Source: Scytonema sp. RU_4_4 (GTDB taxonomy: Bacteria; Cyanobacteriota; Cyanobacteriia; Cyanobacteriales; Nostocaceae). From it: a stretch of 40,115 nt of DNA. Below are positions 1,432 through 31,036 of this stretch, in pieces. The stretch spans positions 1 to 40,115 of the forward strand of contig JAAUSC010000045.1 in the NCBI GenBank assembly GCA_012031965.1. Direction: 5' to 3'. The notes under the pieces were generated by a model. The model did no database searches, had not been told where the DNA came from, and saw only the letters and a list, made by a program, of their open reading frames with translations. The position numbers and the translations under genes were made by a program. How positions within the stretch are numbered: the stretch's first letter is position 1; each line of letters begins with the position of its first letter.

Positions 1432-1449
1432 TGAAGAACTTGTGAGGAA
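1432..1449 (+). promoter_or_regulatory. Shared direct repeat, copy 1 (upstream of nifJ)
   Basis: TGAAGAACTTGTGAGGAA: two TGAGGAA-like half sites 11 bp apart. It lies 200 bp upstream of the nifJ start and reads on the strand opposite to nifJ, as do the other copies relative to their genes (3432, 12746, 24440, 28721, 28953, 30827). Confidence 0.7.
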
Positions 1450-1553
1450 CCACAGAGATTACAGTATTAGACTCGTTCTCAGGCTCAGCCTGGGAATGCT
1501 TCCAGATTCGATGGGAGGCTATGATCGCAGATTCTGCCATCAGGTATGGTTGC

Positions 1554-1949
1554 TCAGGGCAAATTTGCTTCTTGCAGAATTTCTCCATTTAAGTTAGCTC
1601 CAGTCAAATCAGCTTCACTCAAATCGGCTTCTCTCAAACTTGCTCCGCTCAAATTTGCTTGTGCTAAGTTAGCTCCTCTCAGGTTAGCTTGTGCTAGGTT
1701 AGCTCCCTCCAATTTGGCATCTCTCAAGGTGGCACTCAAGACAGTTTCAGTCAAGTTTGCTCCCGCTAAGATTGCACCCCGCAAGCTAGCACTGGATAAA
1801 TTTGCTTTCTGCAAAATTGCACCTGTTAGTACAGCTTCACTGAGGTTAGCTTCACTTAAGTTAGCTTTGCTCAAATCCGCTCCACTGAGGTTAGCAACAA
1901 TCAGGGTGGCTCGTTTTAGATTCGCCTGACTTAGATTAGCCACCACCAA
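1554..1949 (-). CDS. Small pentapeptide-repeat protein, possibly a gene remnant
   Basis: The translation is almost wholly A(N/D)LSxA-type pentapeptides (ANLSQ, ANLSG, ADLSK, ANLSE and so on) over about 130 residues, which fold as a right-handed quadrilateral beta-helix. No ATG exists: the frame opens with TTG-GTG-GTG after an in-frame TAA and lacks a clear ribosome site, and the protein starts and ends inside the repeat array with no capping region. It could be a real gene with a TTG or GTG start, or a fragment of a longer gene like the complete 288-residue relative at 25366-26232. Its role is unknown. Its 5' end faces nothing related; nifJ lies downstream on the same strand. Confidence 0.5.
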   Translation of the reverse strand: MVVANLSQANLKRATLIVANLSGADLSKANLSEANLSEAVLTGAILQKANLSSASLRGAILAGANLTETVLSATLRDAKLEGANLAQANLRGANLAQANLSGASLREADLSEADLTGANLNGEILQEANLP

Positions 1950-2033
1950 GAACGCCCCACACTTTCCGTTGAGAAACCCGGTTTTTTAGGTCTTGTTGAG
2001 AATGGTGCAAGATATGAGCGCCCCACGAGGGGA

Positions 2034-2057
2034 AGTCAAAAGTCAAAAGTCAAAAGT
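2034..2057 (+). repeat. Short tandem repeat, AGTCAAA x3
   Basis: Three perfect AGTCAAA heptamers followed by AGT, of the short tandemly repeated repetitive type known from heterocyst-forming cyanobacteria. Confidence 0.8.
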
Positions 2058-2433
2058 ATGAAACCTCCTCGCAACTTTTGAAAGAAGCACATTTTTCTTC
2101 ACTGACTGAAAGCCTTGCTATGTAAGCGTTATAAAATGTGTTTCTTAGGAGTAAAGCTCTCTGGCTCTGGCTTTCCATAGGGTTGACATGAAGCCAGAGT
2201 CAACGTCAGAATCAGGGTTCGCAGAGGGAAAGATTTTAGCGCAGCTAAAAGCGAGATGTGTATACAGTAGGTACAGTGCCCTGAATGGCGACACGCAGAT
2301 GTTGTTGCACTCCAGGTTGATTGATAAGGCACTTAAGCGTAATAAAATATCCCACCGTCGCAAGCGCCTGAAAGGCTGGGCACCAATACTAATAACCATC
2401 TTGCACACCCAAGAACAAATACGGTGAGGCAGT

Positions 2434-2470
2434 GCATTGCGGGGGTTCCCCCCCGTTGTAGCAACTGCCG
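2434..2470 (+). repeat. Second copy of the interspersed repeat found in nifJ
   Basis: Matches 27-62 over the whole core (GC[A/G]TTGCGG.GGTTCCC..CCGTTGTAGC.ACTG.CG) with a few substitutions and one extra C. Here it lies between genes, downstream of hypA. Confidence 0.7.
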
Positions 2471-2535
2471 AACCCGAAGGGCGGAATATTTTATTTTTTG
2501 GATCTCCCTAATTTGAGTAACATTCACGCTCTCAA

Positions 2536-2877
2536 TCAAGACACTTCCAAAAAAGCGAGTTCAAACTCCTTGCCTTGACGCACTTCACAATAAGCTTGGT
2601 GACACTCCGGACATTCATTGAGCTCGCTAGTCGGGAGAAATTCAATGTTGCAATTCGAGCAGTAACAGATAACAGGAACCTTCTCCACTTGTAGTTTGGC
2701 ATCTTCAGCAATTGTTCCTTTTTTGGCAACATCAAAAGCAAACTCCAAGGAATCTGGCATAACACCAGATGCTTCACCAACTCGCATTTGAACGACACGA
2801 ATATGTTGAGCGCCTTCTTCTTTGGCACGCACTACAGCAGCTTCGAGAATATTTTGTATCATTCCAACTTCATGCAT
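2536..2877 (-). CDS. hypA: Hydrogenase nickel incorporation protein HypA
   Basis: HypA binds nickel and, with HypB, delivers it to the large subunit of NiFe hydrogenases in the cytoplasm. The 113-residue product has the invariant start MHEVGM (His2 binds nickel in this family) and two CxxC pairs, CSNC and CPEC, which form the structural zinc site, with the usual spacing. The length is normal. Its start lies inside the end of the upstream hoxW-like gene (19-bp overlap), so the two are probably co-transcribed and translationally coupled, with the shared direct repeat at 3432-3449 upstream of both. The partner hydrogenase is presumably Hox, encoded in the same window. Confidence 0.95.
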   Translation of the reverse strand: MHEVGMIQNILEAAVVRAKEEGAQHIRVVQMRVGEASGVMPDSLEFAFDVAKKGTIAEDAKLQVEKVPVICYCSNCNIEFLPTSELNECPECHQAYCEVRQGKEFELAFLEVS

Positions 2878-3350
2878 AATTCTTTCCTCACAGTTTTTAT
2901 CAAATGGTTTATTTTCTCAAGTGCTATTTCTATTCCCCGTTCAGCAACGGATGATAGGCTTTCGCCTAATTCAAAATTCACTCCTGGTACCATCACCCAC
3001 CATCCTTGCGGTGAACAACCATAAACAGCTTGTGTGAGCGTAAGTAGATAACTAGGGTTGCTGCTGTGTCCCATTGTCACACTCGCATCGGTAACTTTTA
3101 TAGGACAGACTTGCACATCCTGTTGTGCTGTGGCGGGATATGCATCAACAAAAATGGTAACATCAACGTTTGCCAAGCTTTCAGCCAGTTCTGGTGTGAG
3201 TTGGGGAACACATAATGTAGACACATTCGCGAGTTTCCAACTTGCTATTGCATCACTCACTCGTAGTCCAGCAGCATCATCACCACGCAAGTCATTACCG
3301 TAGCCAATTATGACAAACGAAGGGGAGAGATTGGCGAGAACATTGCTCAT
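2859..3350 (-). CDS. hoxW: Hydrogenase maturation endopeptidase, HoxW type
   Basis: This protease trims the C-terminal tail of HoxH once nickel is inserted. It has the family start FVIIGYGNDLRGDDAAG (acidic metal ligand in GDD), a second Asp in FVDAYPA and the His of MGHSSNP, as in HyaD/HoxW proteases; the length of about 163 residues is typical. The ATG at 3350 is chosen because the GTG at 3362 has no better ribosome site and the extra residues are not conserved-looking; AGG precedes the ATG closely. It overlaps hypA by 19 bp. The target tail is visible in hoxH (17811-19262). HoxW rather than another HyaD-like protease is inferred from the presence of Hox genes and the absence of uptake-hydrogenase genes here. 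Confidence 0.88.
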   Translation of the reverse strand: MSNVLANLSPSFVIIGYGNDLRGDDAAGLRVSDAIASWKLANVSTLCVPQLTPELAESLANVDVTIFVDAYPATAQQDVQVCPIKVTDASVTMGHSSNPSYLLTLTQAVYGCSPQGWWVMVPGVNFELGESLSSVAERGIEIALEKINHLIKTVRKELCMKLE

Positions 3351-3431
3351 AATCCTAGCCACATTTAGGACACTGCTTGAGTAGATTTTTCGATAGTGCA
3401 GAACTCACATTCTAAAATTAGGTGAAAAATT

Positions 3432-3449
3432 TGAGGAACTTGTGAGGTA
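3432..3449 (+). promoter_or_regulatory. Shared direct repeat, copy 2 (upstream of hoxW-hypA)
   Basis: TGAGGAACTTGTGAGGTA, 82 bp upstream of the chosen hoxW start, on the opposite strand. Identical to the consensus except for one base in the last position pair. Confidence 0.75.
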
Positions 3450-3586
3450 ACTCAATAGTACTAACCAAACAGCTTTTACCCAGTTTTATTAGATTAGAAG
3501 GCGATTCGGCGAACGGTGAGTTTAAATATCTTTAAAAAACAATACCTTCGCCAATTTACGAGGCTTGAGGATAGGGTTTAGTAGAG

Positions 3587-3877
3587 TAGACCTCTTGCAA
3601 AAATGCTTGAAATGTCATGTTGAGCGAAGCGAAACATCTCTTGAGATTCTGAGGCTATGCCTAACGGCAGGCTGAGTCCTGAGCCTGCGGCACGGCGAAG
3701 CCGAACGGACACGCTACGCGTTGGCGCAGCCTGTCCGTAGGACTTACGCCAACGCCGCGCCAAGGCGTTAGCGTAGCGTCTCCGGAGGAGATACGCTACA
3801 CTGCGTTTCGCTGCCCTCCAGGCACGCTGCGCTAACAGAATGACATTCACAACTTTTCGACTTTTGCAAGAAGTCTA
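3587..3877. mobile_element. MITE-like composite repeat element
   Basis: Bounded by 16-bp inverted repeats TAGACCTCTTGCAAAA (3587-3602) and TTTTGCAAGAAGTCTA (3862-3877) with one mismatch. The inside holds further palindromes rich in ACGCTACGC and GTAGCGTCTCC-type sequence and a TGAGCGAAGCGAAACATCTC-type core, common in cyanobacterial intergenic repeats. No transposase frame. No target duplication is obvious. Confidence 0.65.
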
Positions 3878-4036
3878 GTGAATACGACCATTACCTGTGA
3901 GCTTGTGGAAAATCTTGGTTAATAAAATTGGCGATTGTTTTTGAGGAAGTACTTTATCATTTCATGGACATATCGTCGCCTCCCTTGAGTAATATGCTAG
4001 TGTGCTAGCATAAAAGGAATTAACTCAATTCCCATC

Positions 4037-4222
4037 ATGGAACGAATAAACAAACGAACTCACAGCGATTACACCCAAAGTGCCGCTTATTTACCCAAAG
4101 ATTTGGTGAAAAACTTTAAACAGTTGCTTGTGGAATTAGAGATAGGGCACAGTGAAGCAATGGAGGAAGCGATAAGGATGTGGTGTGATGCGGCTATCAA
4201 AAAGGTGAATAAGAGTAAATGA
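4037..4222 (+). CDS. Small hypothetical protein, first of three overlapping small genes
   Basis: This 61-residue protein (MERINKRTHSDYTQSAAYL start) is charged, with a predicted helical middle LVKNFKQLLVELEIGHSEAMEEAIRMW; I quote it in two parts: LVKNFKQLLVELE and IGHSEAMEEAIRMW. The layout (polar N-terminus, two helices) recalls ribbon-helix-helix antitoxins, but I cannot assign a family. Its TGA overlaps the ATG of the next gene (ATGA at 4219-4222), which argues that it is a real, translationally coupled gene. Confidence 0.55.
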   Translation: MERINKRTHSDYTQSAAYLPKDLVKNFKQLLVELEIGHSEAMEEAIRMWCDAAIKKVNKSK

Positions 4223-4410
4223 GGTATCCGCATTATCCCACAGCCGAACAAAATCTCACCTGTTTCATCCTCAGTCACAACTTAACAACGATGTTGCTAG
4301 ACATTGGAATAGTGAGATTAGATGAGCGAACGGGAAATGTTTACATCTTGGCTGGAAAAGAGAATGGGATTGTAATTACACCCAATGGTAAATGGAGATA
4401 TGACGAATGA
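4219..4410 (+). CDS. Small conserved cyanobacterial protein, DUF6888-like
   Basis: The 63-residue product has the pattern PTAEQ..CFILSHNLT followed by VRLDERTGNVYILAG and a final ITPNGKWRY, which matches the short cyanobacterial family I know as DUF6888. It overlaps both neighbours by ATGA (4219-4222 and 4407-4410). Members of this family usually lie next to the DUF6887 family, as here. Function is unknown; the pairing and size suggest a toxin-antitoxin or accessory pair, which is only inference. The family name is from memory and not checked by a search. Confidence 0.65.
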   Translation: MRYPHYPTAEQNLTCFILSHNLTTMLLDIGIVRLDERTGNVYILAGKENGIVITPNGKWRYDE

Positions 4411-4610
4411 CTAAGCCCAATTTTCTCACAATGAGTAAATCGGAACTTAAGCGCTATCTACTAGAGCATCGTAACGATACAGAAGCATTCCACGCGCTCA
4501 TGGACAGAATCAACGCAGAACCAGACCAAAAGTTTTATACAGTAGATGAAGCTGACGTGTTACAGGAGTTGATTGAAGCAAAACACCATTCTAAAGACGA
4601 AACAGTATGA
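4407..4610 (+). CDS. Small conserved cyanobacterial protein, DUF6887-like
   Basis: The 67-residue protein reads MTKPNFLTMSKSELKRYLLE then HRNDTEAFHALMDR, a pattern I associate with DUF6887 (KPNF..MS..EL..Y.LEHR.D.EAF..LMDR). Its ATG overlaps the stop of the DUF6888-like gene, so the three small genes at 4037-4610 form one coupled unit. Function unknown; it is acidic and probably helical. Confidence 0.65.
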   Translation: MTKPNFLTMSKSELKRYLLEHRNDTEAFHALMDRINAEPDQKFYTVDEADVLQELIEAKHHSKDETV

Positions 4611-5026
4611 ACCTTTATGGTGAATCTAGAACCCTCTACAGTACTGACTTAGCGGCTTTTTAGTTATGAGAATTCAGATTATCGGTACTCAGGTATGTCG
4701 TCTAAACAATATATCTGTAGCGACCCATCCAAGTTATATTATGTTTCTAAGAAACTATTGCACCCTTTGTGCTAAGCCGCTCCGAAAAACCTATACAGAA
4801 CTAGTCAACCATAGACAAAGCTGTACAAAGTCAGAGCGTGCAGACTAAGACCCACTTAGGTCTACGATTTTTGAGTCATGACACCTACAAGTGAACGCCA
4901 GCTTGTAGCTCTGTCGAACTCAGTTAAGCAATCAGTAAACAGGTTTATAGCTGTAGTGCTGAGTTCATAACAAGCTCTTAAATCATTGTCGAGGCAAACA
5001 TTACTTAGTGATAAGGATGACAGAAT
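4611..5026 (+). other. Non-coding stretch upstream of iscB
   Basis: No convincing gene. AGCGGCTT (near 4649) and AAGCCGCT (near 4774) could pair over a distance. Three local stems follow (see the candidate omega RNA). A 60-codon frame at 4666-4848 has no recognisable content and overlaps the structured region. Confidence 0.5.
4820..5020 (+). ncRNA. Candidate omega RNA scaffold for IscB
   Basis: IscB nucleases use an RNA encoded immediately 5' of the gene. This stretch has stacked perfect stems: AGACC/GGTCT (about 4848-4863), CTACAAG/CTTGTAG (4885-4891 and 4902-4908), and GAACTCAG/CTGAGTTC (4917-4924 and 4960-4967), the last enclosing an internal loop. Position, density of stems and lack of coding content fit an omega RNA. 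Exact ends and guide segment are not determined; the guide would be at the 5' end. Confidence 0.45.
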
Positions 5027-6409
5027 ATGTCAAATTACGTTTTTCTAATTGACCAAAACAAAACTCCTCTCAATCCAGTGCATCCAGCACAAGCTAGAAA
5101 GCTTCTGGACTCTGGTAAAGCCGCCGTGTTTCGTCGCTATCCATTTGTACTGATTTTGAAGCGAGTTATCGAAAATCCAAACGTGTATCCACTTACGCTC
5201 AAAATTGACCCTGGCTCAAAAGTGACAGGTATTGTGTTGGTTACGAACCAAGGTGATGTCATTTGGGCAATGGAATTGCAGCATCGAGGTCAACAAATCA
5301 AAGATGCTCTGGAACACCGTAGAGCGGTGCGTAGAGGACGGAGAAACCGAAATACTCGTTATCGTCAAACTCGATTTCTTAACCGCAAACGTCCCAGTGG
5401 TTGGTTAGCACCATCATTGCGACACCGCGTCCTCACAACTGAGACTTGGGTGAAGCGGCTACAAAGATTTGTACCAATAGGTTCAATTGTTCAGGAGTTA
5501 GTGAAGTTCGATACTCAAGCAATCCAAAATCCAGAAATCTCAGGTACTGAATATCAGCAAGGAACGCTACATGGTTATGAGTGCCGTGAGTATTTGCTAG
5601 AGAAGTGGAATCGTCAATGTGCTTACTGTGGAGTAAAGGACGTTCCTCTAGAAATTGAGCATATCCAATCGAAGTCCAAAGGCGGGTCAGACCGGATATC
5701 CAATCTCTGCTTGGCTTGTCACAAATGCAATCAGCGCAAAGGGAATAAAGACATCAAGGATTTTCTTAAAGGTAAGCCAGACGTTCTGAATCGTGTTCAA
5801 AAACTTGGCTTAGCACCTCTCAAAGATGCAGCATCTGTCAATTCTACTAGATGGTCTTTGTTCAATACTTTAAAGTCCTTTGGCTTGCCAATTATTACAA
5901 GCACTGGTGGTCAGACAAAATTCAACCGGACTCGATTTAATCTACCAAAAGCACACTGGATTGATGCAGCCTGTGTTGGTGACGCATTGTCCCCTAAAAA
6001 TGAGCGGAACCCTATTAACCCAACGATAAATCGTGCGGCTTCCGAACTAACCGAGGAGGGTTCCGCTCATTTTTTACGTGTTAGACCCCGTGTGGTTGAA
6101 ACCATAAAACTTGTCATCACTAAAATTCTAAAGGTAAGAGCAACTGGTTTTGGTGGTAGGCAACGATGTCAGACTGATAAGTTTGGCTACCCACAAAAAC
6201 ATCGTCCATTGCGCCCAATACTTGGTTTTTCAACTGGCGACATTGTTCGTGCAGATGTTCCAAAAGGTAAGTACGCCGGGACTTTTACCGCTAGAGTCTG
6301 TCCAATGTCGCATGGTTACGGAGAGTTTGTTATTGACAAAAAACGGAGGTCAGTCAAATTGGAATACCTAACCCCTGTCCACAGAAAGGATGGATACGAC
6401 TATGCCTAG
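5027..6409 (+). CDS. iscB: IscB-type RNA-guided nuclease (RuvC + HNH)
   Basis: IscB is the transposon-encoded ancestor of Cas9; it cuts DNA under guidance of an omega RNA. Domains in order: N-terminal PLMP region (DQNKTPLNPVHPAQA), RuvC-I with Asp61 in LKIDPGSKV, an arginine-rich bridge helix (about 95-120), RuvC-II with Glu157 in IVQELVKFD, an HNH domain with CAYC and CLACHKC zinc-type pairs and catalytic His212 in EIEHI, RuvC-III AHWIDAACVG (His310, Asp313), and a C-terminal TGDIVRADV/GYGEF region. All catalytic residues look intact. Residues about 324-350 come from an inserted 79-bp palindrome that keeps the frame. ATG 5027 follows AAGGATGAC. No TnpA transposase is nearby, so the element is not autonomous here. 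Confidence 0.9.
   Translation: MSNYVFLIDQNKTPLNPVHPAQARKLLDSGKAAVFRRYPFVLILKRVIENPNVYPLTLKIDPGSKVTGIVLVTNQGDVIWAMELQHRGQQIKDALEHRRAVRRGRRNRNTRYRQTRFLNRKRPSGWLAPSLRHRVLTTETWVKRLQRFVPIGSIVQELVKFDTQAIQNPEISGTEYQQGTLHGYECREYLLEKWNRQCAYCGVKDVPLEIEHIQSKSKGGSDRISNLCLACHKCNQRKGNKDIKDFLKGKPDVLNRVQKLGLAPLKDAASVNSTRWSLFNTLKSFGLPIITSTGGQTKFNRTRFNLPKAHWIDAACVGDALSPKNERNPINPTINRAASELTEEGSAHFLRVRPRVVETIKLVITKILKVRATGFGGRQRCQTDKFGYPQKHRPLRPILGFSTGDIVRADVPKGKYAGTFTARVCPMSHGYGEFVIDKKRRSVKLEYLTPVHRKDGYDYA
5996..6074 (+). repeat. 79-bp palindromic element inside iscB
   Basis: Perfect 18-bp inverted repeat: AAAAATGAGCGGAACCCT (5996-6013) and AGGGTTCCGCTCATTTTT (6057-6074), with an inner stem ACGAT/ATCGT in the loop. 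It sits between the RuvC-III motif and the conserved ATG.G.RQ.C region of IscB, where relatives have no such stretch, and adds about 27 codons without a stop. Confidence 0.85.
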
Positions 6410-6440
6410 ACCTATACAAAATGACCAGACTTGTATAGGT
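6410..6440 (+). terminator. Hairpin at the 3' end of iscB (terminator or transposon end)
   Basis: ACCTATACAA (6410-6419) pairs perfectly with TTGTATAGGT (6431-6440) around an 11-base loop and starts right after the iscB stop. No T run follows, so a subterminal hairpin of an IS200/IS605-like right end is as likely as a terminator. Confidence 0.5.
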
Positions 6441-6454
6441 ATGCAGAGAAATCA

Positions 6455-6473
6455 AGTTACAGTTTCTAGCCCT
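6455..6473 (+). repeat. 19-bp direct repeat, copy 1
   Basis: AGTTACAGTTTCTAGCCCT, identical to 11377-11395. Both copies lie just downstream of a hairpin of transposon-end type (6410-6440 and 11321-11341), so they may be common target or end sequence. Confidence 0.7.
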
Positions 6474-6570
6474 TAAATTTGTGGAACACTCTCAGCATCT
6501 GTGTGACCGGGCTGAGGCAAGTGTTTGGCTTATTTCTTGTAAACTCCCCAACCTAACTAGCACCAGACGA

Positions 6571-11407: not shown

Positions 11408-12640
11408 TTAAGGTAAAGCGAAAGCGGATTCTGTCACCACTTTGGTAGAGGCTTCCTGGTAAATTTCAGCTTTGAGTGGTTGGTAAAACAGCTCGTACCA
11501 CAGATGACCCACCCGTGCATCAAATTCCCCTACTTGACCTCGCATGAATAGGTGCAAGCACTTTGCAGACTTCCCTGGTAACAGTTGCCAACAGAAACGG
11601 CTTTTATTTCCTTCTTGTGGATGTGTCACCGCGTCTATATGCACATCAGTCGCCAAGCCATAAGCTGGGTAAGGCGATGTGGTGGAACCAACAGCAAACC
11701 AATCGGGTACAGGGAAGACCTGTTGGATATCCTCTGTTTGTCCCATGTTCATGTGGGCAAAGTAGCGAGGTGCAAAGTAAAGATTGGTGACTTGTTTTCC
11801 ATCTATAATTCTGTCTTCTTCACCCTTGGGTTTAGCTTTGATAAATAATTCCTCAATTAAGTAGTTAGCGCCAGCATACAAGCTGATGACTCGGTAAAGT
11901 TCACACACAAAATGACGATTATTGCCTGTATCTGGATCTGCACCCATATAGTCGAAGGGTTCTGAGGCAATAGTCATGCTGGCTCGCACCGGACCACTAG
12001 ATTGGGATATGAGCCGATACGAATGGTTGAACAGAGAAACGTGATAGTATGGCGATTTTGGATGAGGAGGTCCAGGTAACAAAAGTTCAGCTACCTGCAT
12101 ACAGCGCTTTTCTGGGTCTTGCCCTAGCCACTCACCCCTTGCAGCTAGGAATGGATCTAAAATTTCCTGATGGTCAAGTTGCACGCTGGTGGCGGAACCC
12201 GAAAACCAGTTGTGCTGATTATCCTCAGGTGCAGGTATCAAATTGAACCAGACAATCAGGTGGTTGTTCACCAGTCTGACTCCCCGCGCTTGTCCAGAAG
12301 TCCCGTAGACCACCTCTAGAGAAGGCTCTCCCAATTTTGCAGGCATTGGCTTACCCCGGTCTACTCTCACAAAGCCTGAAGCAAGTCTGCCATCCTCCAA
12401 ATTGGGTGGAATTGGTTTTTGTAGTGAAAACACGAGAACGTCACGAGAAGAATCTTCTGGATCAACTCGGTCAACTTGGGCATGAATTTGCGTATGTGAA
12501 AGGTCGCGGAGGTCACTTAGTACAAGTTCTTCTGGAGGAATTTGGAATTGTTGATAGATAGGTTGCCAAGGAAGAGTAATATAACCACTCCGCCAAGAAT
12601 TGGAAGGATTGAAAATAGCTAATAAATTAATGGACGGCAT
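11408..12640 (-). CDS. Conserved protein of unknown function (410 residues), preceded by the shared motif
   Basis: I do not recognise a family. The protein is soluble, without signal peptide or membrane segments, rich in aromatic residues and predicted beta strands, with motifs SSGPVRASMTIASEPFDYMG, ELYRVISLYAGANYLIEELF and LYFAPRYFAHMNMGQ; the mixture of short strands and conserved Arg/Tyr/Asp resembles beta-sandwich carbohydrate-acting proteins, which is only an impression. The ATG at 12640 is chosen because GGAGG lies about 10 bp upstream; a TTG at 12655 is an unlikely alternative. The direct repeat shared with nifJ and hox genes lies 106 bp upstream (12746-12763), which suggests common regulation. 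The persulfide repressor gene lies further upstream on the same strand. Confidence 0.75.
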   Translation of the reverse strand: MPSINLLAIFNPSNSWRSGYITLPWQPIYQQFQIPPEELVLSDLRDLSHTQIHAQVDRVDPEDSSRDVLVFSLQKPIPPNLEDGRLASGFVRVDRGKPMPAKLGEPSLEVVYGTSGQARGVRLVNNHLIVWFNLIPAPEDNQHNWFSGSATSVQLDHQEILDPFLAARGEWLGQDPEKRCMQVAELLLPGPPHPKSPYYHVSLFNHSYRLISQSSGPVRASMTIASEPFDYMGADPDTGNNRHFVCELYRVISLYAGANYLIEELFIKAKPKGEEDRIIDGKQVTNLYFAPRYFAHMNMGQTEDIQQVFPVPDWFAVGSTTSPYPAYGLATDVHIDAVTHPQEGNKSRFCWQLLPGKSAKCLHLFMRGQVGEFDARVGHLWYELFYQPLKAEIYQEASTKVVTESAFALP

Positions 12641-12745
12641 AAGTTGCCCTCCCAACTTTTGTTATGCAGTTGCGTTTTTTGGAGTTATTTAGTTAGCTGT
12701 GTACTCTGAAGTACTGAGCTATTTTTTTAGCTTAGGAGAAAATTT

Positions 12746-12763
12746 TGAGGAAGTCGTGAGGAA
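12746..12763 (+). promoter_or_regulatory. Shared direct repeat, copy 3 (upstream of the 12640 gene)
   Basis: TGAGGAAGTCGTGAGGAA: both TGAGGAA half sites perfect, spacer changed from CTTG to GTCG. It reads on the strand opposite to the gene that starts at 12640. Conservation of the half sites and change in the spacer suggest the halves are the contacted parts. Confidence 0.7.
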
Positions 12764-17810: not shown

Positions 17811-19262
17811 CTAATCCCTCCAAACTTCATTAATTACATTTCCATCCACCCCAACTAACTGAACATGCAATGGCATTTGTCCCGCTGCATGCGTTGAACA
17901 ACTCAAACAAGGGTCAAACGCTCGAATTCCCGCTTCCACTCGATTTAACATTCCTTCTGGAATTTCCGAACTGTGAATAAAATGCCGCGCAATTTGTGCC
18001 ACAGTGCGATTCATTGCCAAATTATTCTGACCTGTAGCAATGATTAAATTCACCTTTTGAATTAAACCATTTTCATCAACTTTATAATGGTGGAACAAAG
18101 TTCCACGAGGTGCTTCACTACAGCCAATTCCTTCTAATTGGTTAATTCCTGCATCAGCACGCAATTTAGTAGAGAGTAAATCTGGATCATCCATCATTAT
18201 TTCTATGCGTTCAATACATGCCAAAATTTCAATTAAACGAGCATAGTGATAGAAAAACGATGACGTGACTGTGCCTTTGCCGTAATCTCTAAACTCTCTT
18301 AATTCTGTATCAGCTAAAGATGTGCCAATGGAAGTACAAATATTGAGACGTGCTAAAGGTCCAACACGATAAATGCCACTATCCAAACGACAATGGTCAT
18401 GCTGGTCGGGATATCCTAGAGAGCGATAGTAGGGAAATTTCAGGTAAGACCACGGTTCAACTGCTTCCCCAATAAATTCTTGATAGCGAGAAGGGTCGAG
18501 GCGATCAGCAATAATATTACCTGCGCTGTCTACAAACCGAATGCACCCATCGTAATTTTCCCACAAACCTTCAGGTGTGACTAATCCCATAAATAAACTA
18601 GGAAAATTACCAAAGGTTTGCGCTTCTGCTTGATAGTCTTTGAGCAAGCGTTTAAACCGCCCCAGCGCATCTAAAATCGTGGTTTTTGCTTCTGGAATGC
18701 GGTTTGTAATGTGGGTGCGTCCTTCTTGAGATAAAGGTTCTCTGACGCCTCCCGGAACCGCCCATGATGGATGTATCTTGCGCCCTCCCAATTGTTCAAT
18801 AATTTCTTGTCCAAACTGACGTAAACGAATTCCCCCACGAGCAAGTTCTGGTTCAGCTGCAATTAAACCAAACACATTGCGCTTTTGCGGGTCGCTATCC
18901 ATTCCTAATAATAAATCTGGGGCGCTCAGATGAAAGAAACTCAAAGCATGGGATTGGATAATTTGCCCCAAGTTCATCAAGCGACGCAATTTTGCTGCTG
19001 CTATTGGTATGGTGACGGCAAGAATGGCATCTCCTGCTTTGGCAGAAGCTAATAAGTGACTCACCGGACAAATGCCACAAATTCTTGCTGTAATTCCTGG
19101 CATTTCCCACAGAGGACGACCTTCACAAAACTTTTCAAATCCGCGAAATTCTGTGACGTGAAAGCGAGCATCGCTGACTTGTCCGGCATCATCTAAATAA
19201 ATAGTGATTTTGGCGTGTCCTTCAATGCGGCTAACAGGATCGATGATTATTCTTTGTGACAT
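17811..19262 (-). CDS. hoxH: Bidirectional NiFe hydrogenase, large (catalytic) subunit HoxH
   Basis: HoxH carries the NiFe centre that interconverts H2 with protons and electrons. The 483-residue precursor has both nickel motifs: [10 protein letters not shown] (Cys62, Cys65) and DPCLSCSTH (Cys452, Cys455, His458). After His458 follows a 25-residue tail ([20 protein letters not shown] and five more), the part removed by HoxW after nickel insertion. Length and motifs are normal, so the subunit looks functional. It is the last gene of the cluster; a repeat array and the polymer-forming protein gene separate it from hoxY. Confidence 0.97.
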
Positions 19263-21942: not shown

Positions 21943-22659
21943 TTAAAACAGCCATTGCTTTTTCTCCCGTGCTGTAACAAGGAATTCGAGTTGGGAGCGC
22001 GAGCGTTTCATTTCTCCGACACTTGAACCCTGGTAGAAAATCGCACCTGTTGGACAAGCGTTCACGCACTTCCCACAGGAAGTACAAGTTTGCGAAGTTC
22101 CCCAAGGTTGATTCAAGTCAGTAATCACATGGGAGTTTGTCCCTCTACCCGCCATATCCCAAGTGTGTGCTCCTTCAATTTCATCGCAGACACGGACACA
22201 ACGAGTACAAAGAACACAACGGTTATGGTCAATGCCAAAGCGATCATGTGAAATATCAACTTGGCGGTTAGGAAATTGGTATTCTAACCGCACATGATCC
22301 ATACCCATCTCAATTGCCAAGTCTTGTAATTCACAGTTACCATTAGCTACGCAGACTGAACAAATGTGATTGCCTTCAGCAAATAGCATTTCTACAATCG
22401 TGCGACGGTATTTTTGCAGGCGATCGCTATTTGTATGGACTTCCATACCTTCAGCAACTTTCGTCACACAAGCAGGTTGGAGTTTCTGACTACCAGCAAT
22501 TTCTACTAAGCAAAGACGACAAGCGCCTACATCCGAAAGCCCCTCTAAATGACACAGAGTCGGGATATGAATTCCAGCATCCTGGGCTGCTTGGAGAATG
22601 CTTTCCTCCTCGCGGGCGCTGACCAATTGCTCATTTATTGTTAAAGTTTGTACTGACAT
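21943..22659 (-). CDS. hoxU: Hox diaphorase subunit HoxU
   Basis: HoxU is the electron-wire subunit (NuoG N-terminal homologue). The 238-residue protein has a [2Fe-2S] plant-type region ([21 protein letters not shown], quoted as [12 protein letters not shown] and GACRLC), [13 protein letters not shown], and two ferredoxin-like 4Fe-4S motifs, [13 protein letters not shown] and [17 protein letters not shown] 22659 is chosen because AGAGGTAAAA precedes it and the added upstream residues are low-complexity (AAATTCAAATTC repeats). Upstream on the same strand is the RetSat-like gene, 34 bp away; the promoter is probably at or above that gene. Confidence 0.96.
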
Positions 22660-22693: not shown

Positions 22694-24313
22694 TTAAATT
22701 TCTTTTTTTGAATTTGAAATTGGGAAAATGATGGCGAACATGACCTTGAAGAAGCCAAACAATCCGTTGATAATTCCTGCTGTCATCACACCGCCGATTG
22801 TTGCTCCCACGATTCCATGAACTAAGGCATCTGTTCCGGTGAGATACAAGTTTTTAATTGGAGTTTTCGCGTTAATCCATTTCTGGTCAAATCTTTCTGG
22901 CACTGAGGCAGTCCCATAGGTAGAGCCTTTATCACTGGCGACGAAGTATTCTACTGTTAAAGGCGTAGCTAGTTCGTAGTATTCAATTAAGTCTTTGAAA
23001 CCAGGATAGTAATTTTCTACAAAATTAATAATTTTTTGAGCGAGTTTTTCCTTAAGTTTATAATAATCTGGGTCTCGTTTTCTCCAGGGCTGACCCTGCC
23101 ATCTAGCAAAGTAATTGTAGTCCGCATAAATAATGATTTCAGCGGTGGAGCGACCTACTGTGTGGTTTTTCAGTGATGGAAAAGAAAGCATACAACTGTT
23201 AATAATCTTATCCGGTGCAGCCAGTTGTTCTTGAAGTGCCTGGTCGTGGTTGTAAGTATTAAAAATCCAATAATTTTGTGTCCCAAAGCCCAGTTTTTCG
23301 GGAGACTCTTTCAATCCCAAAAACAGGAACAACATACTGTAACCCTTGGGAAATGCTGTGATTTGGTTGCGGTACGCAGTTGCATAACCTTCAGGAAGCA
23401 GTTCGGTATAGGTCTTGAATGCCCCAGCATCAGAAATAACTACAGACGCATAATATGCTTCTACTTCCGCCTTTGCATTGTGGGTCTTCTTAGCTTTTAC
23501 CCCCTTCGCCACGCCGTTTTTCACAATAATCTCTGTAACATGGCGTTGGGTAAGCACCATTCCTCCAGCTTTTTTAATAGTTGGTAGAATGCAATCAACA
23601 ATTGCTTGTGACCCGCCCACAGGATACCAACTGCCCTTGCCATAACTGGTCATAGCTACAGCATGAATCCCAAAGGAGATTTGCGAGGGTGGTAAGCCAT
23701 AGGCACCCCATTGAGAAGTTAGCAAAGCTTTCAAATAGGGGTTTCGGAAATTCCGCTCCACATATTCCTTGGTTGTTAGACGGGCAAGTTTTCCTAGTCT
23801 GCCAACACAAAGCTTAATGAGTCGCTGGAGCCATTTGGGCAAAAAATCCGCAATCAAATGTATCTTGTACCAAATAGTGACTTTTTGTAAGTCGGAAAAG
23901 TATCGCTTGATGCTTGCCTTTTCCTCTGGGAACATCCTAATTAGGTCAGATATGTTTCTTTGCGGGTTGGAATATATCTCGAAGGTGAAGTCTGGGTAGA
24001 CAAGTTTATCAGATAGATTAGGCAACTTTTCCCATTGCAGCTTGCCCTCAGTGATGTAGTCAAACACAACTCGTCCGATGTCACCTTTTGCCATTTCTGT
24101 CACTGCTTGGACACCGATATCCCATCGAAAGCCTTTGCGTTTAAATTCTTGGGTAAAGCCACCGACAATGAAATGCTGTTCCAGAATCAGCACTTTTTTG
24201 TGGTTTAATTTTGAAAGGATGGCAGCAACAGTTAGTCCGCCAATGCCAGAGCCGATGACAATCACGTCGAATTGATTGGAATCAGATATTTTCTGTGTTG
24301 TCTTCATTGCCAT
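22694..24313 (-). CDS. RetSat/CrtI-like FAD-dependent oxidoreductase
   Basis: A 539-residue member of the phytoene desaturase/retinol saturase superfamily. The FAD dinucleotide fold is at the N-terminus: [20 protein letters not shown] then [29 protein letters not shown] follows, and the C-terminal FAD motif is [20 protein letters not shown]. The substrate cannot be told; it may be a carotenoid, retinoid or isoprenoid double bond. The ATG at 24313 has GGAGAG just upstream; a TTG at 24424 is improbable. It lies between the two halves of the hox cluster, and the shared direct repeat at 24440-24457 is 127 bp upstream, so it may head the transcript that carries hoxU-hoxY-hoxH. Confidence 0.85.
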
Positions 24314-24439
24314 CAACTCTCCTACAAAATTGGGTATTGGTTGGCTAATTGGGGGGCAATGTTCATCGTCTGCTGCGAAAGGAGCACCCTGGCTCCACTT
24401 AAGCTGAGTTGAGTTTATTTCCAAGCTACGAAAAAAGAA

Positions 24440-24457
24440 TGAGGAACTTGTGAGAAA
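24440..24457 (+). promoter_or_regulatory. Shared direct repeat, copy 4 (upstream of RetSat-like gene and hoxU-hoxH)
   Basis: TGAGGAACTTGTGAGAAA: one mismatch in the second half site. It lies in the only gap between the DUF6544 gene and the RetSat-like gene, on the strand opposite to them, where a promoter for the second half of the hox cluster would be expected. Confidence 0.7.
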
Positions 24458-24471
24458 GTGGAGAGTTGAGG

Positions 24472-25317: not shown

Positions 25318-25365
25318 CACCTAGTCTTTTGACTGTAGTTGTTAGGTTTTGTTATGTTGACAGCT

Positions 25366-26232: not shown

Positions 26233-26341
26233 ATTAATTGCCTCTTATTAGTTAGAAAACTGTTGTTACTCCTTTGAGTGTTCGCCAAATCTTACTCACT
26301 TTTTTGCCTCCCTAGTAAGTGTTTTATGGGTGTATTCGTAT

Positions 26342-27970
26342 TCAGAAGCCAGCATTATCTGTGGTTTCATGAATCAACGCCAAATACTCATCCCGGAAAT
26401 ACTGCAATGTACTAAATACCGGATTCGGTGCAGACTGACCCAAACCACACAAACTGGTATGCTTCACCATATCGCACAGTTCTTCCAGCAGTTCTAAGTC
26501 AACAAGTGATGCTTTGCCTTCCCGAATCTTGCTCAACAATTGATACAACTGCACTGTCCCCACACGACAGGGAATACACTTACCACAGGACTCATCCATG
26601 CAAAATTCCATGAAGAAGCGGGCGACATCCACCATGTTGGTGGTTTCATCCATAACAATCATTCCACCAGAACCCATGATGGAACCAAGTTGAGCAAGAG
26701 ATTCGTAATCTACGGGAGTATCAAAAGCGAAAGCGGGAATACACCCACCTGAAGGACCACCTGTTTGCACTGCTTTGGCTGTACCACCATCTGGCACACC
26801 TCCGCCCATTTCTTCCACAATTTGCCGCAGGGTGGTTCCCATCGGCACTTCGATTAAACCAGTATTGCGGATTTTACCAGCTAGTGCGAAAACTTTTGTA
26901 CCTTTGCTTTTTTCTGTACCGATGCTGGCAAACATGTCTGCACCTTTGCGAATAATCCAAGGGACATTGGCAAAGGTTTCGACGTTGTTAATTAAAGTCG
27001 GAAATCCCCACAAACCACTCTGGGCTGGATAAGGCGGTCGGGGACGAGGTGTACCGCGTTTGCCCTCAATTGAAGCCATTAACGCGGTTTCTTCACCACA
27101 AACATAAGCCCCCGCACCAATGCGAATATCAATCTTGAAATCAAAGGGTGAGTCAAAAATATGACTTCCTAACAAACCAAGGCGTTGTGCTTGGCGAATG
27201 GCAATTTGTAGACGGTTGATAGCGATGGGATATTCAGCACGAATATAAATGTAACCTTGAGTTGCACCGACAGCATAGGCGGCGATCGCCATCCCTTCCA
27301 AAACACGATGAGGGTCACTTTCCAAAACACTCCGATCCATAAACGCGCCTGGATCGCCCTCATCAGCGTTACAGATCACATATTTGCGTTCTCCCTTTGC
27401 CTTGGCAACAGTTGCCCATTTTATACCCGTGGGGTATCCTGCACCACCTCGTCCTCGCAACCCACTGCGGGTGATAGCTTCTGTGACTTCACTCGGTGTC
27501 ATCTCTCGCAGCACATGGTAAAGCGCTTGATAGCCTTCAGCAGCAATGTAAGATTCAATGCGTTCCGGGTCAACTTTGCCGCTGTTTTCTAAGACAATGG
27601 GTAGTTGCTTGGTAAAAAATGATTCGGTAATATCACCTGCTTGTACTTTGACTTCACCACCATTTAATGACGCCACAATTGAGGCAGAATTTTCAGGAGT
27701 TATTTTCTCATAGAGTAAGGTACTGCTATTGTTCTCTACCAGATTGTCAACTTGTACCAAAGGACCTTGGCAACACAAACCCATACAACCCACACCGCAG
27801 ACTTCTACTTTATCTGCCAGTCCTGCTTCTTTGGTTACCTTCTCCAAACTTTCTTTGACGCTGATGGAACCAGATGATAAACAACCTGCTGCCATACAGC
27901 AACGGATGCGAACAGGTTTGGATTCAGCACGCTCTTTCTCAGCTATTTCCAGTAGTTCCGTCAGATCCAT
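26342..27970 (-). CDS. hoxF: Hox diaphorase flavoprotein subunit HoxF
   Basis: HoxF (NuoF homologue, fused to a NuoE-like N-terminal part) binds NAD(P)H and FMN and feeds electrons to HoxU. The 542-residue protein has an N-terminal thioredoxin-like [2Fe-2S] region ([26 protein letters not shown]), the FMN loop [16 protein letters not shown] (about 168-183), [19 protein letters not shown] (about 297-315), and a C-terminal 4Fe-4S site [16 protein letters not shown] plus [10 protein letters not shown]. Length and motifs are complete. The start overlaps the end of hoxE by 32 bp, so the two are translationally coupled. Confidence 0.97.
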
Positions 27971-28496
27971 GTTTGAGCCATCCTTTTATTTGTTCGGTCA
28001 CTGACTCTGGTGTTTGGTGTCCGCACACTGTACCATCAAACACTACTGCTGGCGCAATTCCACAAGCACCCAGACATCTTGCTGTTAACAACGAAAGTTG
28101 CCTATCTAGCGTTGTTTCACCTGCATGAATTTTGGCGCACTTTTCTACAGTTGCTAGTAAATTTGCTGCACCTTTGACGTAACAAGCGGTACCCGTACAC
28201 ACAACACAGCTATGTACACCCTTCGGTGCTAAGGAGAACAAGTGATAAAAAGTTGCCACACCATAAACACGACTGGGTGGCAGTTTCAGGCTGTGGGCAA
28301 TGTAGAGTAATAAGTCATTTTCTAGGTAGCCAAAGAGTTCTTGTGCCTTATGCAAAACTTCTATCAGTGCATCCTGCTGATATTGATGGCGCTTCATGGT
28401 TGCATCCAGTATCTTGAAGCGTTTGTCACCGCTGAGATGCTCTTTTGAAGGACTTTTTGCATACTGATTTTTGTTATCAGCTGTCACAGGATTCAT
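27939..28496 (-). CDS. hoxE: Hox diaphorase subunit HoxE
   Basis: HoxE (NuoE-like) carries a [2Fe-2S] cluster and, from structural work on Synechocystis Hox, takes part in electron exchange with ferredoxin or flavodoxin. The 185-residue protein has the four-Cys pattern CTGTAC ([13 protein letters not shown]) and CLGAC ([11 protein letters not shown]) with normal spacing, after a helical N-terminal domain ([20 protein letters not shown]). The ATG at 28496 lacks a strong ribosome site. It is the first gene of the cluster; the shared direct repeat lies 225 bp upstream. Confidence 0.97.
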
Positions 28497-28720
28497 GTCT
28501 TTGTTTTTATACAGTGGGTTGTTTTGGTTTCAAACTTGTCTTGATATATATGTAAGTACAAAATGCTTGTTGTAGTAATTTTTCGTTGATTTGCAGTGCT
28601 TTGCTGACTAAGTGTCAGTCATGTTACAGATTAGAGAATATGAGACTGTTTGGTTGCAGTGCTTGTAACTCCTGAATTCTACACATACAGTTCTACATAC
28701 ATAGTTATAGATGAATAATT

Positions 28721-28738
28721 TGAGGAACTTGTGAGGTC
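28721..28738 (+). promoter_or_regulatory. Shared direct repeat, copy 5 (upstream of hoxE)
   Basis: TGAGGAACTTGTGAGGTC: differs from the consensus only in the last two bases. It is 225 bp before the hoxE start, on the opposite strand. Confidence 0.75.
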
Positions 28739-28809
28739 TGTGTCAAGATTTAATAACAGTACACTGGTAGGATCAGCCTAGAAAAGAAGTCCTGTTTTGG
28801 AGAGAATTA

Positions 28810-28899
28810 ATGAAGCGGAAGAAGGTTTTAGCTAACTTTACTTTTCGTTACATACTTCTGTTTATTTGCGCCTTTCTAGTTATAGAACAGTCATATTAA
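28810..28899 (+). CDS. Possible 29-residue membrane peptide
   Basis: ATG at 28810 follows TTGGAGAGAATTA, a good ribosome site. The peptide starts MKRKKVLANFT and has one hydrophobic segment (YILLFICAFLVI) before a short polar end. It could be a small membrane protein, or a signal peptide left from the gene whose peptidoglycan-binding remnant lies 135 bp downstream. Confidence 0.35.
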   Translation: MKRKKVLANFTFRYILLFICAFLVIEQSY

Positions 28900-28952
28900 A
28901 CATCTGCTAAACAAAATGATTTTTAAAATATTAAATCTTGTATGAAGGGTAT

Positions 28953-28970
28953 TTCCTCACAACATTCTCA
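28953..28970 (-). promoter_or_regulatory. Shared direct repeat, copy 6 (reverse orientation)
   Basis: Minus strand reads TGAGAATGTTGTGAGGAA: second half perfect, first half with changes, same 11-bp period. This is the only copy on the minus strand, and the only one whose nearest downstream coding traces (29035-29163 and the gene at 29281) lie on the plus strand, so the orientation rule holds. Confidence 0.6.
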
Positions 28971-29034
28971 CAACTTTTTCTTATTCTAAAAATAGAGATA
29001 TTCAAGATAATCTCTCAGGAGTAGATAGAAAAAC

Positions 29035-29163
29035 ATCGGTCTCAAAACAGAAAAGACTGTGAAATCTTATCAACTCAACCGTGATTTTGTTGTAGATGGT
29101 ATACTCGGTCCGAAAACCTGGCACAAAATGACTGACGATATACCTGAAGAGGTACCTTGTTAA
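29035..29163 (+). pseudogene. Peptidoglycan-binding domain remnant
   Basis: The frame encodes KTVKSYQLNRDFVVDGILG and PKTWHKMTDD before TAA, matching the end of a PG_binding_1 repeat (Y/FQ....VDG..GPKTW..L). A TAG lies in frame just upstream (about 29025) and only a GTG (29059) could start it. AGGAG at about 29017 precedes the area. It is either a broken secreted cell-wall-binding protein or a very short one. Confidence 0.5.
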
Positions 29164-29280
29164 TCGAAGTAACTCTAAGAGTTTATTTGGCTAGCCACAT
29201 ATTTACATTTTTGAATCTAGAAAATTTTCAAATGTTTTTCTCAGAAGTTTAACACTACCTTCTGAGGAAAGAAGGTGAGT

Positions 29281-29892
29281 ATGAATCATAAAAATTTCCG
29301 GAAAACACCAATCGCGCTTGTACCAGCTTTTCTTGCCACGGCGACACTAATGACAGCCTTTGTTAGCCCCGCCTTTGCTGCACCAAAAGTTGAAATTGTC
29401 GGCGCAGGTTACGGTGGTAGTGGTTGCCCCGGAGGCTCTGCGAATGTGACCGTTAGCCCTGATGGTCAAGAGCTAACTATTCTATTTGATAAGTTTATAG
29501 CTCTTGGAAATAACTCCAGAGAAAGCCGCAAAAGCTGTAATTTGACAATTCCGATCAAAGTACCCCAAGGCTTTCAAATTTCCCTTTACGATGCTGATTA
29601 TCGAGGCTATGTTGCTCCTTTTACCACTGGACAATTAAGATCAGAGTACTTTTTTGCCGGTCAGCGCGGACCTGTTTTTTCTCGACAATTTAGTGGCGAA
29701 ACTAACTATAACGTTCGAGATAGTTTAGAGACTGTAGCTGATGTCTGGTCGCGTTGTGGCGACAGTTTGAACATGCGGGTGAATGCTGGGATGTCCGCTA
29801 GTGGTCAAGGAATGGCTACTGTTGACTCTTTCGATCTTGCACATCGAGGTTTGGTTTATCACATCAAATATCGCACCTGTCCTAGCAATTAG
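29281..29892 (+). CDS. Secreted DUF4360 protein
   Basis: The 203-residue protein has a signal peptide (TPIALVPAFLATATLMTAFV, cleaved probably after PAFA) and a mature part with VGAGYGGSGCPGGSANVTVS, SPDGQELTILFDKF and VPQGFQISLYDADYRGYV, typical of DUF4360, a family of secreted proteins of unknown role in bacteria and fungi. Four Cys could form two disulfides (SGCPG, KSCNL, SRCGD, YRTCP). ATG 29281 follows GAAGGTGAGT; an in-frame GTG at 29275 is the overlapping alternative. The inverted copy of the shared motif lies 310 bp upstream. Confidence 0.88.
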   Translation: MNHKNFRKTPIALVPAFLATATLMTAFVSPAFAAPKVEIVGAGYGGSGCPGGSANVTVSPDGQELTILFDKFIALGNNSRESRKSCNLTIPIKVPQGFQISLYDADYRGYVAPFTTGQLRSEYFFAGQRGPVFSRQFSGETNYNVRDSLETVADVWSRCGDSLNMRVNAGMSASGQGMATVDSFDLAHRGLVYHIKYRTCPSN

Positions 29893-30300
29893 CAAAGTTG
29901 AGAGCATCCAGGAGGAATAATTCTTCAAATCATCAATTGTGCAATAGCAATCCGAATGACATCGTGAGAAAATGCGGAGATGAAAAGTATCTATATTATA
30001 GATATTTTAGATTTTTTCACTCACAAATAATTTAGGATTGCTATCGCTCATATCGACGGGCATATTGATTGCATCCAGGAATATCAGCTGCAGAGAAGTC
30101 TTTTTTCAATCTTTGAAGTTCAATCTTTTTTGCTTGAACTTTCTTTAGAGTTATTGAAAAACCTTTGAAAGGGATTAGAAGTCGACCACGGAGATATTGC
30201 TGGTACGAATGATAAGAGGAATAGACAAAACGATATTGTCTGCAATATTATTGAGGGAATTTGCAAAAATAGTTGGTCATCTGGCAATGCTCCTAATGGT
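29893..30300. other. Intergenic stretch with a hairpin element
   Basis: Contains the inverted-repeat element at 29941-30047. Minus-strand sequence at 30120-30300 has a hydrophobic reading frame (IILQTISFCLFLLSFVPAIS) that may be the continuation, in another frame, of the damaged gene at 30301-30603. Confidence 0.4.
29941..30047. repeat. Hairpin/MITE-like element downstream of the DUF4360 gene
   Basis: GCAATAGCAATCC (29941-29953) and GGATTGCTATCGC (30035-30047) are inverted repeats with one mismatch. The middle has ATCTATATTATAGAT, a palindrome, and GTGAG/CTCAC pairing between the arms, so the whole 107 bp can fold. Confidence 0.55.
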
Positions 30301-30603
30301 TTAGATGGTTGAGACCACATCAGCGTTACTAAAAATAGCATTAATAAAGTTTTCAACAATTAACTCTGATGAACGTCTAGATACTAGTGAGCGAAGCCGT
30401 CGAATAACAACAAAACACAGTAGGAATACTATGAGCCATGCTAATGGGGTCAAAATGATTGTGCTTCCAGCCTTGCTAAAAGTCTCAACATCATTCCCCA
30501 GCTTTTTAACCGCCGTAATGCTTCTGTCCCAATTGCTTGGGGTAGGTGTTATGATAGGTTTTAGGGTGTTACTTCCTTGCATAAGCTTAGGTATTTTGTT
30601 CAA
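30301..30603 (-). pseudogene. Damaged gene for a small membrane protein
   Basis: The 100-codon frame has a polar N-terminal part, a membrane segment (STIILTPLAWLIVFLLCFVV) and a charged end (RRLRSLVSRRSSELIVENF). Only TTG is available as start, with an in-frame stop shortly upstream. The sequence after its stop continues as a hydrophobic frame in another register, which suggests a frameshift. A plus-strand frame (30305-30793) overlaps it and looks less protein-like. The shared motif at 30827 is 224 bp upstream, the same distance as for hoxE. Not recognised. Confidence 0.35.
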
Positions 30604-31036
30604 TACAATATGTGTGATGCTAAAGTATCAAGCAAGGTTATCGAGAGCAGCCGCTTTCGTGAGGAAGTCACTGACCTTGCACCATTTTCAACAAGGTGAG
30701 AGTAACCGGGTTTCTGAACGAAAAATCAAGGATTTTAGTTTTACCTATTCGCAAGAAACCTGCTTTCTTGCGGTAGTGCAGGATGGTAAGTGACTTTACT
30801 TACCTACTTAATTTAGAAAAAGATGTTGAGGAACTTGTGAGGAAATAAAACCAAAGCTGGCAAGTTATTGAAAGATTTAGCGTTTGTCAAATTTGTGGTA
30901 AAACTTGCGGCAAAGGTATTTTGCAAGAAAGATGCGCCTCGAAATAGACACTCCCTTCTCTGTCGAACCAAAGGCTTTATCTAAAGACTCCCCTCGGACT
31001 ATGTTCTCAAGTTAAGATCATTACTGAGACAAGAAA
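30604..31036. other. Stretch with the shared motif and decayed sequence
   Basis: Holds motif copy 7 (30827-30844). A short plus-strand frame at about 30872-30948 reads CQICGKTCGKGIL, resembling a zinc-ribbon scrap, without start or extension. Otherwise nothing recognised. Confidence 0.4.
30827..30844 (+). promoter_or_regulatory. Shared direct repeat, copy 7 (perfect consensus)
   Basis: TGAGGAACTTGTGAGGAA. Downstream on the opposite strand lies only the damaged gene at 30301-30603; upstream to the right is the stub of the acetate-CoA ligase gene. The perfect site in decayed surroundings suggests that the gene it served was lost recently. Confidence 0.7.

Follow-up and report, generated by a model that had tools for sequence, protein, structure and literature searches.

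A tandem-repeat promoter element with Pho-box build in Scytonema sp. RU_4_4 and other cyanobacteria: a putative low-oxygen/fermentation regulon and its candidate hybrid response regulator

Introduction

In promoters served by PhoB-type activators, a box lying 11 bp ahead of the -10 takes the place of the -35. The mycobacterial regulator DosR belongs to the NarL/LuxR type and recognises a palindromic site, and the site of FNR/Anr, TTGAT-N4-ATCAA, is palindromic as well. Here we describe an element made of two tandem TTCCTCA repeats, which occurs in seven copies in a stretch of 40,115 nucleotides from Scytonema sp. RU_4_4 (contig JAAUSC010000045.1 of assembly GCA_012031965.1, G000:C212 in our locus naming; the whole stretch is referred to as the window) and precedes genes of pyruvate oxidation, hydrogenase maturation and the hox hydrogenase itself. 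It is likely that this element is bound by an OmpR/PhoB-type activator and defines a low-oxygen/fermentation regulon, the most likely regulator being one clade of hybrid response regulators.

In Synechocystis, low-oxygen control of the same physiological targets, hox and nifJ, involves SigE, cyAbrB2, LexA and Rre34 (PMC11368403, PMC13421787), but the element is unmentioned in the accessible parts of both sources. As far as its accessible text goes, a 2026 review assigns RpaA and cyAbrB proteins to hox, and cyAbrB2 together with SigE to nifJ (PMC13421787), to which an eLife paper, in the part available, adds LexA and Rre34 (PMC11368403). For the hydrogenase and fermentation genes of filamentous cyanobacteria, the accessible sources give no more than a loose attribution of control to LexA and AbrB-like proteins. 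In the accessible part of a study of CO2 step-down in Nostoc PCC 7120, transcripts of nifJ (42-fold), of the hox clusters (74-fold on average) and of ppsA (107-fold) drop jointly, and LexA or cyAbrB is suggested for hox by its authors (PMC7699953); the same trio is element-marked in other genomes. A description of the motif did not emerge from our literature searches, nor did any paper turn up in a full-text search with 14- and 15-letter cores of the box. The comparisons reported below point to a shared switch that is so far undescribed, and whose element and regulator gene tend to come and go together.

Results

The element in the window and in its genome

The preliminary description of the window reported seven copies of an 18-bp direct repeat, and all of them were recovered at the positions listed below, with 0-3 mismatches and in each case between open reading frames (ORFs) of a simple gene model. 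Dinucleotide shuffles yielded 0.05 copies on average, and none of 100 shuffles reached seven. The flanks of the copies, as printed, have nothing in common beyond the motif and reveal no longer repeat. Together with the -10, the promoter elements are as follows:

1410..1449, minus strand: promoter element 1, box TTCCTCACAAGTTCTTCA at 1432-1449, -10 TAACTT at 1415-1420, upstream of nifJ, score 41.7
3410..3449, minus strand: promoter element 2, box TACCTCACAAGTTCCTCA at 3432-3449, -10 TAATTT at 3415-3420, upstream of hoxW-hypA, score 48.8
12724..12763, minus strand: promoter element 3, box TTCCTCACGACTTCCTCA at 12746-12763, -10 TAAGCT at 12729-12734, upstream of a 415-aa protein, score 44.5
24418..24457, minus strand: promoter element 4, box TTTCTCACAAGTTCCTCA at 24440-24457, -10 TAGCTT at 24423-24428, upstream of a RetSat-like gene and hoxU, score 34.3
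28699..28738, minus strand: promoter element 5, box GACCTCACAAGTTCCTCA at 28721-28738, -10 TATAAC at 28704-28709, upstream of hoxE-hoxF, score 38.2
28953..28992, plus strand: promoter element 6, box TTCCTCACAACATTCTCA at 28953-28970, -10 TATTCT at 28982-28987, score 33.8
30805..30844, minus strand: promoter element 7, perfect box TTCCTCACAAGTTCCTCA at 30827-30844, -10 TAAATT at 30810-30815, score 46.2

Elements 5 and 6 stand back to back. Throughout the genome (7.33 Mb, 400 contigs), the 18-mer was matched 28 times when no more than 3 mismatches were allowed, and the pattern read backwards 6 times; when TA was required behind the box, 18 matches remained, against 1 in the reversed control. Nine of the 28 copies scored below 10 in the promoter model and were dropped (L014, L016, L018, L019, L021, L023, L024, L027 and L028). 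In the fetched stretches of this genome, to which the 40-column scoring was applied, 21 sites reach a score of at least 19: seven in the window, four on contig C99, three on C68, two on C319, two weak ones on C278 and a single one on each of C148, C339 and C202. The top site (L029:9594-9633, score 50.8) lies upstream of a gene for a baeRF-type release-factor-like protein.

Anatomy and promoter geometry

Alignment of 111 distinct sites (at most 2 mismatches, taken from the loci fetched by then and oriented along the gene) revealed tandem direct repeats with an 11-bp period, TTCCTCA-N4-TTCCTCA. In gene direction the element reads TTCCTCA-CAAG-TTCCTCA, followed by 11 AT-rich bases and TAnnnT. The TA stands at the fixed distance of 11 bp behind the box in 101 of the 111 sites, with the -10 columns conserved to 92% (T), 95% (A) and 69% (last T); upstream of the box, conservation stays below 50% in every column. 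Direct repeats with an 11-bp period beside a -10 are also the build of the Pho box in PhoB-type class II promoters, from which the cyanobacterial element differs in its TTCCTCA core and its regulon. The OmpR/PhoB-type layout proposed in the preliminary description is strengthened by the fixed spacing between box and -10, and very probably the element is a site of the activator type. It has nothing of the FNR/Anr palindrome, its consensus being a direct repeat of a different sequence.

A promoter model of 40 columns was trained on 101 sites. At a score of 12 it gave 96 matches in loci longer than 4 kb and none on the reversed sequence, a comparison in which the training sites came from many of those same loci. 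In loci of at least 9 kb, 76 of 81 sites are intergenic, as against 23.5% of random positions, and for 73 of the 81 the nearest gene ahead lies on the same strand; the scatter inside genes by which a plain repeat was to be recognised is therefore not seen. What we describe is a promoter element with Pho-box build and not a dispersed repeat. One genome, G025, does carry a dispersed repeat with a similar core and similar flanks in 15 fetched copies, which speaks for an origin of the element as a plain dispersed repeat or a mobile-element end. The flanks are, however, unrelated both in the window and across the 111 aligned sites, and the sites are intergenic, oriented, at a fixed distance from the -10 and kept at orthologous promoters, so that such an origin of the element has next to no probability. 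It is rejected for the window on flanks, geometry and placement, and is true of the look-alike in G025 (L445-L459, core TTTCTCACAAATTCCTCA), which forms a separate repeat; G025 and perhaps its congener G097 (2 of the 149 genomes compared below) are possibly overcounted in the site totals.

Distribution and a clade of hybrid response regulators

When as many as 2 mismatches were allowed, the box was found in 42 of 59 genomes, the present one included, with a reversed control near zero. When 84,980 species genomes were scanned for the exact box followed by TA, all of the 80 stretches listed, out of at least 115, were cyanobacterial; Nostoc, Calothrix, Leptolyngbyaceae, Acaryochloris, Xenococcus/Pleurocapsa and Chamaesiphon are among the matches listed.

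The preliminary description correctly stated that the window holds no regulator gene. In related genomes, large hybrid response regulators repeatedly stand beside the element, and the parts of these proteins comprising REC and the winged helix-turn-helix (wHTH) form a single clade (28 rows from 28 genomes, support 99). Members are at least 70% identical to the reference member, while all other rows reach at most 67%. Some genomes hold a second member; the genome of the window has one, on another contig:

L030:16503-18863, contig C319: clade member of 787 aa, GGDEF type

Both PF00072 and PF00486 were found in all eight members scanned, which share a REC-Trans_reg_C-HPt-REC core followed by PAS/GAF-HisKA-HATPase-REC in five, by GGDEF in two and by no further output in one. 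The candidate resembles the PhoB family in its Trans_reg_C wHTH, and the solved structures that match it best in sequence include DrrD-type 1kgs, RegX3, MtrA, PhoP and RpaA; it differs from PhoB-type regulators in being fused to HPt, to more receivers and often to a kinase or GGDEF.

With presence defined as a match with E at most 1e-100 (weaker matches, E 1e-98 to 1e-96, in G114, G120, G124, G134 and G146 were counted absent), the clade occurs in 74 of 149 genomes. These have a median of 9 sites, as against 1 in the 75 genomes without it (Mann-Whitney p=8e-23), and the difference persists within the family of Scytonema sp. RU_4_4 alone (71 genomes with and 18 without, p=1e-9), the reversed control averaging 0.35 and 0.32 sites per genome with and without the clade, respectively. 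Four genera that contain both states were compared, and three agree (24 vs 1, 16 vs 1 and 2 vs 1 sites). In the genus of the window, genomes with the clade have 18, 7, 6 and 0 sites (the last being G003, 89% complete), and those without it 4, 3 and 1. The element lies within 1 kb upstream of the regulator gene in 10 of the 28 clade members. Judging from these sequence comparisons, we predict with good confidence that the hybrid clade is the regulator of the element.

The sites might also form an OmpR-type regulon with another reader, such as a Hik31/Rre34-type pair, RpaA or the related 688-aa protein P0001, the hybrid clade being a linked passenger or an upstream phosphodonor. In favour of this, the genome of the window has 22 Trans_reg_C matches, and Rre34 is named for nifJ in Synechocystis in the accessible part of PMC11368403. 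P0001 lies directly behind a pfkA operon with the element, but its close relatives (E at most 1e-99) are confined to 9 of 59 genomes and are absent at this threshold from the site-rich G013, G010 and G020; this distribution led us to reject P0001 as a general regulator. RpaA is, to our knowledge, near universal and would therefore give no account of the loss of sites. A reader other than the hybrid clade appears unlikely.

Conservation at orthologous promoters and linkage to hoxE

An orthologue was counted as carrying the element when a site with a score of 22 lay at most 1,500 bp upstream on the strand of the gene. Scored were the matches with loci, namely 30 of 47 for hoxE, 30 of 44 for hoxW and 30 of a longer list for nifJ. 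The element precedes 20, 17 and 11 of these, respectively, while the reversed control gave 0/90, and the conservation that the preliminary description had proposed to look for was thus found. Divided by the presence of the clade, the element stands upstream of hoxE in 20/22 genomes with it and 0/8 without, and upstream of hoxW in 17/23 and 0/7. For nifJ the figures are 10/21 and 1/9, the exception being G053, which has a diverged hybrid. Among genomes outside the training of the model, hoxE carries the element in 10 of 11 that possess the clade. In some genomes an extra gene separates the element from hoxE (a Usp gene in L081). The regulator gene is divergent from hoxE, with the matched parts 1.06-3.5 kb apart, in 7 of the 12 pairs located on the same record; for the remaining 10 of the 22 clade-bearing genomes with hoxE, regulator gene and hoxE lie on different contigs.

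The regulator could conceivably be a repressor that covers the -35 region in air and is relieved at low oxygen, as the box overlaps the expected -35 position. The fixed 11 bp between box and -10 is nevertheless the arrangement of PhoB-type activators, and in genomes without the clade hoxE and hoxW have no site, as if it were useless without the protein. Even though such a loss fits a repressor too, we consider repression decidedly unlikely.

Target genes

An ORF is in reach of 264 of the 294 model sites. The target families, named by resemblance with one member of each main family checked, are Usp (28 sites), a small CxxC protein (23), phosphoenolpyruvate (PEP) synthase (14), Hsp20 (12), NifJ (11), HoxW (9), 4Fe-4S/radical-SAM activases (9), PfkA (8), HoxE (7), CBS (7), PFL (4), HoxU (4), PsbA (4) and others, besides 55 singletons. 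Pfam searches confirmed Usp, PPDK_N, HSP20, Radical_SAM, PFK, CBS with CP12, and PFL-like with Gly_radical, as well as a nitroreductase-like domain, CoA-ligase domains and a cation ATPase. The regulon is, in all probability, of the low-oxygen/fermentation type. The preliminary description had placed pyruvate oxidation, hydrogenase maturation and both hox units under one regulator, a reading supported by the retention of the element at orthologous hoxE, hoxW and nifJ promoters.

The content of the mycobacterial DosR regulon is similar: Usp, Hsp20, CBS, phosphofructokinase, a PEP/pyruvate dikinase-type enzyme and nitroreductase-like proteins. In contrast to DosR, the cyanobacterial site is a direct repeat and the candidate is of the OmpR type; neither a palindrome nor a NarL/LuxR-type regulator was found in the element or the candidate.

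Some individual targets deserve mention. The second commonest of them, the CxxC/zinc-finger-like protein of 81-84 aa (L249:167-409, L033:4187-4438), had no Pfam match in the member scanned. A fusion of CBS and CP12 lies behind the element at L106:7182-7808 and hints at a link to Calvin-cycle control. Box-rich islands, counted with at most 2 mismatches, were observed in L101-L104 (G017:C53:15001-86000; 14 boxes) and L105-L106 (G027:C34; 9 boxes), and many of their genes resemble Usp, CBS and Hsp20 genes.

Alternative D1 genes

The sample of D1 genes comprised 21 genes of at least 300 aa, out of 46 Photo_RC matches of which 30 were fetched, and came from five genomes that had been picked for holding a psbA with the element. 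The element was found upstream of five of these genes, one in each genome. All five genes encode A80, L158 and A286, which we take to be the signature of the low-oxygen D1 variant (D1'); a literature search for these letters found no source. Among the 16 D1 genes without the element, 14 have G, F and T at these positions, one has A, F and T, and the last, from G025, shows the complete D1' set. This last gene (L431/L441) is a longer D1-like one and adjoins another odd D1 copy. For a psbA of this kind, psbA1 of Acaryochloris, induction under microoxic conditions is reported; the likeness lies in the D1' letters of the five element-bearing genes, and the difference is that the accessible part of that report names no regulator or site (PMC5295598).

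Genes behind the elements of the window

The genes that accompany the seven elements are the following:

2..1240, minus strand: nifJ, pyruvate:ferredoxin oxidoreductase (PFOR), truncated at the contig end, partial TIGR02176 match (4.8e-186)
2536..2877, minus strand: hypA, TIGR00100 above cut-off
2862..3362, minus strand: hoxW-like hydrogenase maturation protease, TIGR00072 above cut-off
11411..12655, minus strand: 415-aa protein, no Pfam match
17811..19262, minus strand: hoxH, NiFe hydrogenase large subunit, assigned by gene order, all large-subunit models being below their cut-offs
21943..22656, minus strand: hoxU, NF005745, 442 bits, above cut-off
22697..24316, minus strand: RetSat/amine-oxidase-like flavoprotein, Pfam NAD_binding_8 and Amino_oxidase
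26342..27970, minus strand: hoxF (NuoF-like), assigned by its position behind hoxE, TIGR01959 490.6 bits, below the cut-off of 558.65
27942..28496, minus strand: hoxE, NF005747, 283 bits, above cut-off
28971..29274, plus strand: remnant of a small peptidoglycan-binding protein, with a single stretch of 44 residues between stops
29275..29892, plus strand: DUF4360 protein, PF14273 (5e-44)

The TIGR02176 match of nifJ is below its cut-off because the gene is cut by the contig end. Homologues of the 415-aa protein stand behind the element in four more loci (L051, L062, L116 and L250), and the one in L062 had no NCBIfam match. By clustering, the RetSat-like flavoprotein belongs to a family with five sites; for its ORF, a start near 24316 is more likely than one at 24424, since the -10 (24423-24428) overlaps the longer ORF.

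The genes downstream of the last two sites had been described as weak, and both indeed look decayed. Longer homologues of the remnant at 28971..29274 sit behind the same element in L103 and L302, for which reason the site at 28953 appears to be the promoter of a peptidoglycan-binding family member that has decayed; PG_binding_1 (PF01471) was found in the L103 and L105 proteins. No convincing intact gene was found downstream of the perfect site at 30827.

The hox genes form an island in this genome, matches to HoxE (E 1e-30) and HoxW (E 1e-25) being found in none of the six congeners G001-G006; the island was either gained here or lost there.

Discussion

What the sequence comparisons show is the element with its geometry, targets and conservation, and the fact that it co-occurs with the regulator clade and is linked to it; from these we infer binding, activation rather than repression, and a signal of low oxygen or over-reduction. 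Several points, beginning with the indirect nature of the argument for binding, weigh against this interpretation. Four genomes without the clade have at least five sites (G053 16, G133 6, G058 5 and G072 5); in G053 a diverged hybrid, the recognition helix of which is nearly the same as that of the clade, lies in a site-rich region. Conversely, nine clade-bearing genomes have at most three sites, one of them none, and only 10 of 21 nifJ copies in such genomes carry the element. Related genomes are non-independent observations in the co-occurrence statistics, and the clade gene could be a fellow target or a passenger and not the reader of the site. Finally, the D1 gene of G025 with all the D1' letters lacks the element, and the PCC 7120 transcripts concern CO2, not oxygen, while the element was mapped in other genomes.

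The mechanism that we propose for the activator is as follows. An OmpR/PhoB-type protein would bind the element through two tandem TTCCTCA contacts with an 11-bp period, which would replace the -35, and would position RNA polymerase at the TAnnnT -10 eleven bases further on. In Scytonema sp. RU_4_4 this protein would be the 787-aa GGDEF-type regulator of contig C319, responding to low oxygen or over-reduction. The predicted regulon comprises, on the side of pyruvate and hydrogen, nifJ, pfl, PflA/NrdG-like activases, hoxEF, the hoxU operon and hoxW-hypA, and would further include PEP synthase, phosphofructokinase, ADP-forming CoA-ligase-like enzymes, Usp, Hsp20, CBS(-CP12) and nitroreductase-like proteins and the alternative D1.

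In a wider sense, it seems on balance plausible that several cyanobacterial lineages possess one anoxia/fermentation regulon, in which a hybrid OmpR-type regulator with its own phosphorelay or GGDEF output switches hydrogenase, PFOR/PFL, PEP synthase, stress proteins and D1' together, and which is DosR-like in content and not in regulator or site. With the site defined, over ten target families listed and a single candidate gene named, the question of control becomes open to direct tests. If the proposal is true, the same switch couples hydrogen production to the exchange of D1 in photosystem II, which is of relevance to hydrogen biotechnology and to the life of oxygen producers without oxygen.

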